Shown: positions 5,746 through 63,751 of the stretch, piece after piece | Position numbering within the stretch: the first letter of the stretch is position 1 | How the letters are laid out: every line of letters starts with the position of its first letter | Assembly (NCBI RefSeq): GCF_008831545.1 | Contig: NZ_CP044523.1 | Span: forward strand, 1,240,001-1,304,000 | Origin: Halorussus halophilus | GTDB lineage: Archaea > Halobacteriota > Halobacteria > Halobacteriales > Haladaptataceae | Length of the DNA stretch: 64,000 nucleotides | Direction: 5' to 3' | Notes under the pieces: model-generated | Told to the model about the DNA's origin: nothing | What the model saw: only the letters and a program-made list of their open reading frames with translations | Database searches by the model: none | Translations under genes and position numbers: made by a program

Positions 5746-5859
5746 GGGTCTCGACACGACGACGGCGAAAAATTGCGCGTCCCGAATTCAGCGGCCGACA
5801 CGGAATGCAACGGCCGATACTGAACTATCGGTGTGTTTCGAAGGGCGATACGAGCGTCG

Positions 5860-6195
5860 CTACGCCGTGATTGGCGAGGCGGCCGTGATTGGCGAGTCCG
5901 CCGTAATCGGGGAACTGACCGTAATCGGTGCACTCGCGGTGATAGGCGCGTCGGCCGTAATTGGGGAGCTAACCGTAATCGGGGCGCTCGCCGTAATCGG
6001 AGCGTCGGCCGTAATCGGACTGTTCGTGATAGGCGCACTCGCAGTAATCGGAGCGTCAGCAGTGATTGGCCCGCTTACCGTAATTGGTTCGTCCGCAGTA
6101 ATCGGGGCGTCGGCGGCCATTACTGGTGCCGTCGCGAGACCGAACCCTGCGAGCAGTACAGCCGTGGTGAACAGCAGTTTCGTTGTGACTTTCAT
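5860..6195 (-). CDS. Secreted protein built of Pro-Ile-Thr hexad repeats
   Basis: A 111-residue protein. Residues 1-28 form a clean Sec-type signal peptide (MKVTT, hydrophobic core, AAD after APVMA). Everything after it is a run of about 14 units of the form PIT-A/V-D/S-A/S/G, for example PITADA, PITASA, PITVSS; one unit is five residues (PITNS). The Ile-x-x-x-Ala spacing resembles left-handed beta-helix hexads. The AT-rich 60 bp upstream contains TATA-like sequence on this strand. No family is recognised. The opposite strand across the same repeats also reads as hexads but has no signal peptide. A short surface or secreted structural protein is the cautious reading. Confidence 0.65.
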   Translation of the reverse strand: MKVTTKLLFTTAVLLAGFGLATAPVMAADAPITADEPITVSGPITADAPITASAPITNSPITADAPITASAPITVSSPITADAPITASAPITVSSPITADSPITAASPITA

Positions 6196-6249
6196 GCGGA
6201 ATTCTCTCTCGGTATTCAGTTTTCACACCGAACACCTGCATTCATATCT

Positions 6250-6282
6250 AATCTATAGTATTAAATAACTTTCCTACAATAA
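6250..6282 (-). promoter_or_regulatory. AT-rich promoter region of the Pro-Ile-Thr repeat gene
   Basis: On the minus strand this stretch reads as an uninterrupted AT-rich run including TTATTTAATAC, in strong contrast to the GC-rich surroundings. It ends about 55 nt before the ATG at 6195, so a TATA box here would give a 5' leader of roughly 30-45 nt. Position and composition are the only evidence. Confidence 0.4.
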
Positions 6283-10336: not shown

Positions 10337-10455
10337 TCGAAAGCCCCCGCCCGCTCGCGGTCGTTCAGCGACATATCCGCAAACCGCGCGGATAGAGGTC
10401 GCTGAACGACCACGTCCTCCGGACGCGAGCGACCGGCCCCTTTCAGTCCCGCCCG
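10337..10455. repeat. Palindromic intergenic element, family 3, copy 1
   Basis: A perfect 14-bp inverted pair GGTCGTTCAGCGAC (10359-10372) / GTCGCTGAACGACC (10398-10411) encloses a second pair TATCCGC / GCGGATA (10374-10380, 10388-10394). The flanks TCGAAAGCCCCCG and CGGCCCCTTTCA recur around 50115-50190 with a similar CGTTCAGCGAC core. This is a dispersed palindromic element rather than an operator unique to paa, although it lies between the HTH-10 gene and paaA and could be used by either. Confidence 0.65.
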
Positions 10456-25147: not shown

Positions 25148-25215
25148 CTGCAAACTCAACTGCGGCTATGAACAGCACTATCTGCAAACGCAATTGAGGC
25201 TATGAACCGCACTAT
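25148..25215. repeat. Two imperfect 34-bp tandem repeats
   Basis: Units at 25148-25181 and 25182-25215 agree at 30 of 34 positions; both end in GCACTAT. There are only two units and no spacers, so this is not a CRISPR array. They abut the family 1 element that starts about 25210. Confidence 0.75.
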
Positions 25216-25572
25216 CGCCGAAACCTAGGAGAGACCGCACCGCCACCGCAACGGCCACACCCTCCCCACCCGACTGCGGGCTTCAGTACGAAAGACGCGA
25301 CGTGTCGCGTCTTTCGGGCTTGCAGTCCTCGTCTCTCACGCGGTTCGTTAGGTCAGTCGCGCACTTTGCGCGACTGCCCCGACCGCACGCGCCGGGTGGT
25401 TTGTGAAAATGCATTTGGAGTTACGGCGCGCGCTGGCGCGACCCTCGTGGTCGCGCCGACCGTCGCGCGAGGGATGAGTGAAGCGACTGTAAGGAGCGAA
25501 ACGAATCGGTTGGGGAGGTGTGGGCCTTGGCGGTGCTGTGCGGTCTTCTATGTATCGGGAGTAGCTAGCTCT
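25210..25572. repeat. Covarying-hairpin intergenic element, family 1, copy 1
   Basis: About 360 bp made of two inverted, imperfectly matching halves. Hairpins include a 13-bp-arm stem at 25289-25316, a 10-bp stem at 25354-25376 and a 9-bp stem GGCGCGACC / GGTCGCGCC near 25435-25460. The right end (near 25553-25570, ATCGGGAGTAGCTAGCT) matches the terminal repeat of the copies at 42.2 and 63.6 kb; the left end is degenerate. No coding sequence is credible. Confidence 0.75.
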
Positions 25573-42156: not shown

Positions 42157-42569
42157 GAGAAGCTAGCTACGCCCGGTACCTATGAAAGACCGTTCCGAAA
42201 CGACCACGACCTCCCCGACCTATTCGATTCGCTCATCCCTCGCACGGTCGCTCCTGCCGGGAGCGACTTCGCGCGCCAAGTCGTCGGTGGAGATACGGGA
42301 ACTAACCAACCACACGGCGCGCGCTGGTCGCGGACGCAAGACCGCGACCAAACTCCGCGCGAGGGACGAGTATCGCAGGCCCGGAAAACGCGCCGTGGCG
42401 CGTTTTCCGTACTGAGAAACGCAGTCGGTTGGGGAGGGACGCGAGGCGCGCGGGTTGTGCGGAGAGCGGGCCTCGGACGGTGAGCGGCCGAGCCGCGAAC
42501 GTTTGGCTCTCGGGGTAGCGGTGCTGTTCGGTCTTTGCACGGCTTTGTATCGGGAGTAGCTAGCTTCAC
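42157..42569. repeat. Covarying-hairpin intergenic element, family 1, copy 2 (both ends intact)
   Basis: A 413-bp element bounded by 23-nt terminal inverted repeats (42157-42179 and 42547-42569, 20 of 23 positions paired). Internal hairpins: GTCGCTCC / GGAGCGAC (42247-42267), GGTCGCGG / CCGCGACC (42326-42349) and GGAAAACGCGCC / GGCGCGTTTTCC (42383-42408). Copies 1 and 3 hold stems with other sequences at equivalent places. Small open frames inside are not conserved between copies. Confidence 0.8.
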
Positions 42570-50112: not shown

Positions 50113-50190
50113 ACCTCGAAAGCCCCCGGACGCTTGCGGCCGTTCAGCGACCAAGCAAGCGCGAGCGCCCGGCCCCTTTCATTCCCACCT
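50113..50190. repeat. Palindromic intergenic element, family 3, copy 2
   Basis: Shares TCGAAAGCCCCCG, CGTTCAGCGAC and CGGCCCCTTTCA-TCCC with the copy at 10337-10455, but lacks that copy's second GTCGCTGAACGAC arm, so it is shorter. It is in the 315-bp gap between the aldo/keto reductase and the second binding protein, where nothing else was seen. Confidence 0.6.
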
Positions 50191-63565: not shown

Positions 63566-63751
63566 GTGAAGCTAGCTATTCCCGATACCAAGGAGAAACC
63601 GCACCGCACAGCACCGCCTGAGCCACACGCCTCCCCACCCGACTGTGTTTCTCAGTACGGACGACGCGACGAGTCGCGTCGTCCGGGCCTGCGATACTCG
63701 TCCCTCGCGCGGATGGTCGCACCACGAGGGTGCGACCGCACGCGCCGATAG
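63566..63751 (+). repeat. Covarying-hairpin intergenic element, family 1, copy 3 (left half)
   Basis: Starts with the 23-nt terminal repeat (63566-63588), which differs from copy 2's right end by one base. Contains stems GGACGACGCGAC / GTCGCGTCGTCC (63659-63684) and GGTCGCACC / GGTGCGACC (63715-63737). It lacks the inverted second half and the right terminal repeat, so it is a half element. No gene inside. Confidence 0.8.

Follow-up and report, generated by a model that had tools for sequence, protein, structure and literature searches.

The intergenic element at 42.2 kb of the window, by which we mean the whole 64,000-nt stretch of Halorussus halophilus NZ_CP044523.1 that was analysed (positions 1,240,001-1,304,000, forward strand), belongs to a large class of structured repeats that occurs across haloarchaea and extends much beyond the three copies from which it was first described, and its single-strand fold is maintained by paired substitutions. 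The first-pass annotation had reported hairpin stems that are complementary within each of the three copies yet different between them, and all three were found as described: AAAGACGCGAC/GTCGCGTCTTT at 25.3 kb, GGAAAACGCGCC/GGCGCGTTTTCC at 42.2 kb and GGACGACGCGAC/GTCGCGTCGTCC at 63.66 kb. The second stem, the one with outer arms GAG-nAn-CGC, proved to be altered pairwise in the same way. As to what these repeats are, they may well be non-autonomous, intergenic and probably mobile, working like the bacterial REPIN/BIME or like a haloarchaeal short mobile repeat; the main rival to this reading is a functional non-coding RNA.

Anatomy of the element

The unit is a half-element of ~180 nt (about 110-190), whose outer terminus is GAAGCTAGCTACTCCCGAWACC or of either of two further types, and whose inner end is CGGCGCGCG. 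From the outer end, the order is terminus, variable GCACCGC-like units, CCTCCCCAACCGAYT, hairpin 1, CATCCCTCGCGCG, hairpin 2 and GCGCGCGCCG, and one core is combined with three types of terminus (T1, GAAGCTAGCTACTCCCG; T2, GAACAGCACTATYGCCG; T3, GAAGCTTCCTGCTCACACG). The core, with a mean column identity of 63% in the alignment, has a GC stem that closes hairpin 2 and, as outer arms of hairpin 1, either GAGnAnCGC/GAGnAnCGC or repeated tandem G·A pairs; some copies carry extra hairpin cassettes, which are inserted at fixed points. Half-elements occur singly or as head-to-head doublets, as they also do in Halobaculum and Natrinema. The terminus scan was genome-wide and detailed reading covered 1.25 of 4.45 Mb (the regions around termini, and the window); a box search of that 1.25 Mb gave 95 halves, of which 34 stood in doublets and the others were single. 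The two members of a doublet are separated by a spacer of 29-40 nt in all cases, mostly of 34-40 nt, with 29 nt in the 25.2-kb copy.

The copy at 42.2 kb had been taken for one simple inverted repeat, and is rather two half-elements placed head to head (42159-42567; sequence, terminus scan and matches to the covariance model R1), the stems of the left half differing from those of the right. Sequence and terminus scan place a T1 terminus (GAAGCTAGCTACKCCCGRTAC...) at both ends, namely GAAGCTAGCTACGCCCGGTACC on the left (42159-42180, plus strand) and GAAGCTAGCTACTCCCGATACA on the right (42546-42567, minus strand). The left half core (42210-42278, minus strand), with a short-form hairpin 1 and a hairpin 2, matched R1 with 29.4 bits (E 0.0047), and its folded strand, inner to outer, is the minus strand. 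A central spacer of 36 nt (42279-42314) lies between the two inner boxes, and beyond it the right half core (42315-42437, plus strand), which matched R1 with 117.5 bits, runs through the inner box, hairpin 2, the GAGGGACGAG box, hairpin 1 and the CGGTTGGGGAGG box. In this right half, hairpin 2 (42325-42350, plus strand; sequence and RNA fold) has the arms TGGTCGCGG and CCGCGACCA. The outer arms of hairpin 1 (42368-42422, plus strand), recognised in the alignment of copies, read GAG-TAT-CGC at 42368-42376 and GAG-AAA-CGC at 42414-42422 and carry conserved A·G, A·A and G·A mismatches, and the inner stem GGAAAACGCGCC/GGCGCGTTTTCC occupies 42383-42408 (plus strand; sequence and covariation).

The sister copies in the window illustrate the range of forms. 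At 25204-25571 there is a second doublet (sequence and covariance model), with cores at 25261-25394 (minus strand) and 25424-25518 (plus strand) by the covariance model, a T2 terminus on its left and a T1 terminus on its right. The idea that all three copies share their termini thus stood for both ends of the 42.2-kb copy and the right end of the 25.2-kb copy, but not for the left end of the latter (GAACCGCACTATCGCCGAAACC), which is of a different type. The third copy is a single half-element (63568-63747, plus strand, with its core at 63630-63747, minus strand; sequence and covariance model); 29 bp separate its inner end from the stop codon of a gene on the minus strand. Terminal inverted repeats are present in 17 two-ended copies, but most copies have one terminus.

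Modules of the element were also seen in other arrangements. Four copies have a second, degenerate terminus exactly 66 nt outside the first and in the same orientation, with unrelated sequence between the two (C1:2146705/2146771, 2643358/2643424, 3001598/3001664 and 3598160/3598226); a CRISPR-like reading of this spacing was rejected, there being four cases only and no array. In Halorussus ruber (L184:5829-5935) the outer terminus GAAGCTAGCTACTCCCGAAGCCGAGAG is present in four tandem 27-nt copies, and in the MAG SW_6_65_15 termini stand back to back, 39-56 nt apart. In genome G162 the inner end CGTGCGCCGGGTGGAACGGTTAGGAAG is present at least three times in tandem, as 27-28-nt units, near 8642-8744 of L123, at the junction orthologous to that of the 25.2-kb copy. 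A third module, in which a hairpin comes after CCACCTTTTTTCTCGTCGGGTG...CTCGAAAAAATCTGGACCAAAAAA, adjoins gene ends (L046, L028, L019, L022 and L059 of Halorussus halophilus) and is sometimes fused directly to cores of the family, where it replaces the AGCTAGC terminus. There is, in addition, a second dispersed structured repeat, composed of GGGACTGAAAGGGGCCG, a variable hairpin and GGGGGCTTTCGA, often with CCGGTGACACAAACCAC-like units ahead, which occurs in the window at 10435-10450 and 50171-50186 (both minus strand), had 29 matches in 1.25 Mb versus 0 for the reversed control, and is joined to the present family in several copies. Of a different kind is an 18-nt-period repeat at 5865-6113 of the window, with eight copies, which is apparently coding and lies inside the open reading frame 5831-6268.

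Family size and distribution

Covariance model R1, built from the 34 aligned half-elements of alignment A1, had 116 matches in the Halorussus halophilus genome, and the T1 terminus pattern had 127 matches versus 4 for the reversed pattern. Among the 18 Halorussus genomes, 17 carry matches to R1, at 0-116 copies per genome; the one without copies, by terminus as well as by covariance model, is that of Halorussus sp. G024. In a haloarchaeal sample, R1 had matches in 62 of 194 genomes and 28 of 65 genera, counts that are lower bounds, as searches of more than 40 genomes used stricter filters. The named carriers outside Halorussus include Haloarcula rara, Halobaculum sp. XH14 and Natrinema thermotolerans. 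In a phylum-wide control of 148 genomes haloarchaea alone matched (four genomes, Halorussus halophilus among them, likewise a lower bound), and phages had no match to the element.

Covariation and the folded strand

The main claims are based on A1, a plain MAFFT alignment that is unfitted to structure; alignments A2 and A3 are covariance-model alignments and fitted to it. Across the 34 copies of A1, 101 cells were altered on both sides of a pair versus 26.2 +/- 4.4 after shuffling, with 0 of 500 shuffles as high, and sliding the partners by 1-3 columns left 5-12 such cells. Pairing held in 93% of cells. In the outer arms of hairpin 1, two variable positions are Watson-Crick in 34 of 34 copies, with four pair types each and no mispairs, and A·G, A·A and G·A mismatches are kept between the covarying pairs. 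A further set of 99 distinct sequences from other Halorussus and other genera gave 185 doubly altered cells versus 41, in an alignment fitted to the model. Inspection of 164 hairpins yielded 128 distinct 5' arms with 36 mismatches in ~1700 pairs, and hairpin 2 has 94 distinct arms in 123 copies. The predicted RNA fold of 42315-42437 (-59.3 kcal/mol, z -2.2) agrees with the covariation structure, and the predicted DNA fold (z -3.4) largely does so. The outer-arm triplets fall into few types in all species (GAC/GAC, TAT/AAA, CAT/AAG, CAA/TCG and TAG/CAA), and three of the five covarying types are common to Halorussus halophilus and other species.

On the inner-to-outer strand of A1, G·T pairs outnumbered A·C pairs by 40 to 4 (p = 1.7e-8), and by 25 to 4 (p = 1e-4) with the most frequent column removed, p values that the kinship among copies makes optimistic. 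The structure-fitted alignments had 198 G·T versus 24 A·C, and one pair in them was C-G in 40 cases, T·G in 22, T-A in 37 and A·C in none. Strand-symmetric mutation would make the two counts equal, whereas they are unequal, and therefore it is one strand that folds; cytosine deamination biased to one strand could account for some of the asymmetry, though for none of the covariation. It was this count that decided the strand, fold energy (z -2.17 outer to inner, -1.56 inner to outer) giving no decision. The inner-to-outer strand is also the one on which the short-form hairpin 1 consists of repeated tandem GA/GA mismatches, the commonest tandem mismatch with 107 cases, and on which CGAAG occurs 114 times versus 18 for CTTCG. 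As is known of mini-hairpins, loops of the form C(GAA)G suit DNA at least as well as RNA, and so do tandem G·A pairs; tolerance of G·U/G·T is a trait seen in RNA more than in DNA. We lean slightly towards single-stranded DNA, rather than RNA, as the folded molecule.

Selection for folding, as proposed in the first-pass annotation, is supported by the strong covariation, the defined strand, the conserved purine-purine mismatches and the 40:4 excess of G·T over A·C. The further copies brought more paired changes and no random mismatch of stems; random mismatch, or a want of further paired changes, had been named beforehand as refuting the proposal.

Genomic context and mobility

None of 102 matches was inside a predicted gene, at a coding density of 79%, the gene calls being codon-model predictions made in this analysis. 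Copies were present in 41 of 625 tandem gaps, 25 of 212 divergent gaps and 15 of 210 convergent gaps, their orientation relative to the flanking genes is random, and ~50 bp separate their inner ends from stop codons. The region ahead of the inner end showed no promoter motif, TATA-like element or conserved sequence. The junction that holds the 42.2-kb copy is empty in genomes G024 and G373 and has another, single element in G176; G325 and G123 have nothing at the junction of the 25.2-kb copy, where G162 has a half-element. When junctions were matched across species, 5 of 10 and 4 of 12 were occupied in both, versus ~8% of all gaps, occupied junctions being common to two or three species, and the occupants had differing stems and even differing terminus types. 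Such sharing is compatible with insertion hot spots or with old sites whose sequence turns over quickly, and could mean that the sites are old, retained and functional. The species compared all differ by ~20% in nucleotide sequence, so that the exact boundaries of an insertion could be read in no case.

Neither boundary had an excess of target duplication (doublet, 1.35 observed versus 1.51 with shuffled flanks; half-element, 2.06 versus 2.20), and there was no enclosed transposase or autonomous partner with T1 ends in the 1.25 of 4.45 Mb read, with termini scanned genome-wide. Two T1 pairs do span 3-4 kb, and the nearer encloses two proteins without a Pfam match and one that is weakly radical-SAM-like, and no transposase. 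The label of MITE given earlier is not supported: there is no target-site duplication at either unit boundary, no transposase with these ends was found in the sequence read, and copies mostly have one terminus. Two other drivers were tried and rejected, a Y1 transposase, the presence of which does not track copy number in Halorussus genomes (PF01797 is absent from G147, G162, G392 and G393, which have 84, 101, 81 and 49 copies), and a retroelement or reverse transcriptase, PF00078 being missing in 18 of 18 Halorussus genomes.

Possible explanations

We favour a mobile repeat because the half-elements occur as singlets and inverted doublets, copy number is variable, junctions are empty in some genomes and filled in others, and genes are avoided; covariation, strand polarity, the prevalence of tandem GA/GA and of CGAAG on the folded strand, random orientation to genes, the lack of a promoter motif and the likeness to REPINs point the same way. 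It would be moved in trans, by a supplied enzyme that recognises the folded inner-to-outer strand, presumably as DNA, and only correctly folding copies would be propagated, which would let the stem sequence drift as the fold persists. This reading is weakened because no mobilising enzyme was found, some junctions are shared, no insertion was seen with exact boundaries and the tolerance of G·T is RNA-like. An alternative is that the repeats are a dispersed family of non-coding RNAs or RNA motifs with a structure, transcribed from the inner to the outer end, that have a role in the cell (as targets of an archaeal RNA-binding protein, for instance) and have been multiplied by recombination. Although we regard it as rather unlikely, it would accommodate the one-strand asymmetry of G·T versus A·C, with its series C-G, T·G and T-A lacking A·C, the covariation and agreeing RNA fold, the junctions common to species and the haloarchaea-wide spread. 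It is harder to square with the want of any TATA-like or conserved sequence ahead of the inner end, the random orientation to neighbouring genes, a conserved three-base loop that is C(GAA)G where GNRA loops are not prominent, a Halorussus genome that has no copies, and the lack of an Rfam match.

The remaining explanations appear improbable to differing degrees. BIME-like chromosome sites, at which protein would dock on double-stranded termini and the hairpins would be secondary, are improbable: the termini do recur outside the element, direct or inverted (the four 66-nt cases, the tandem 27-mers of H. ruber and the back-to-back pairs), and junctions are shared between species, but single-strand covariation and strand polarity would be left unexplained. 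Quite improbable, and already strongly weakened, is the proposal that the fold is a by-product of replication, in which hairpin template switching copies one arm to the other (quasipalindrome correction) and no selection for folding is involved. Inner stems that are nearly perfect, with few intermediates and the 36 mismatches in ~1700 pairs, are what it would produce; it would, however, also erase the A·G, A·A and G·A mismatches, which are conserved among covarying pairs, and the mismatches are strand-asymmetric. That the element is a classical MITE, mobilised by a DDE transposase that acts on its 22-nt terminal inverted repeat, is very improbable, since the inverted termini of the 17 two-ended copies and the high copy number are set against no target duplication, no autonomous copy found, a majority of one-terminus copies and three terminus types on one core.

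Comparison with known systems

Haloarchaea are well studied, and yet a large structured class in them has gone unnoticed, with ~100 unannotated copies per genome and a presence in many genera. As a mobile repeat it would be an archaeal counterpart to REPINs without the usual transposase, and makes the question of how short repeats move a testable one; if transcribed, it would rank by copy number with the larger RNA families of archaea, and proteins that bind RNA at tandem G·A pairs could naturally be tested on it. It may, although this is less likely than not, be either a haloarchaea-wide class of folded-strand element, with tandem G·A pairs at regular spacing and few kinds of paired triplet code in the outer arms, that has spread without Y1/RAYT, DDE transposase or reverse transcriptase, or an abundant and so far unrecognised archaeal non-coding RNA family. 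The first-pass annotation knew of no description of this combination; an Rfam scan gave no match within the window, and the literature searched had no description of the element, SMR/PATE and REPIN being the nearest kinds. The double-hairpin elements of fungal mitochondria also have two hairpins, a conserved fold, varying stems and a dispersed intergenic placement, and differ in genome, size and boxes.

REPINs are inverted doublets with intergenic placement, single-stranded DNA hairpins and compensatory changes (PMC3116915). The REPIN/BIME of Pseudomonas and E. coli (PMC3116915, PMC8266576) are, like the present element, extragenic, high in copy number, found as singlets and spaced inverted doublets, endowed with single-strand hairpins that keep conserved mismatches and with compensatory stem changes, and devoid of coding capacity. 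Their half-unit is 20-50 nt, in contrast to the two-hairpin unit of about 110-190 nt here, and the present element is archaeal with modular termini; the GTAG foot of their hairpins is found here in T1 (GGGAGTAGCTAGC) and is absent from T2 and T3. They are linked to a RAYT (Y1) gene, whereas the haloarchaeal element has no such link, and because that link fails it is not a member of the REPINs. The SMR-A/B of Haloquadratum walsbyi, the mobilisation of which has been called enigmatic, are likewise haloarchaeal, with inverted termini, no target duplication, no transposase and an unexplained mobilisation (PMC3119063). Their termini are unrelated to known transposons and they are too short for a transposase; in the present element inverted termini were seen in two-ended copies, and there was no target duplication and no coding sequence. 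However, SMRs are 80-110 bp long, commonly >95% identical and target other elements (PMC3119063), in contrast to the diverged, modular, larger and intergenic copies with covarying stems seen here, and because high identity between copies fails the element is not a member of the SMRs. PATEs share palindromes, the lack of target duplication and of coding capacity, and a haloarchaeal host; they have no terminal inverted repeats and their ends match the IS605 type (PMC3119063), whereas our two-ended copies have inverted termini, and copies persist here in several genomes without a Y1 transposase. The kinds nearest to the present element are the bacterial REPINs/BIMEs and the Haloquadratum short mobile repeats, and not the classical MITEs.
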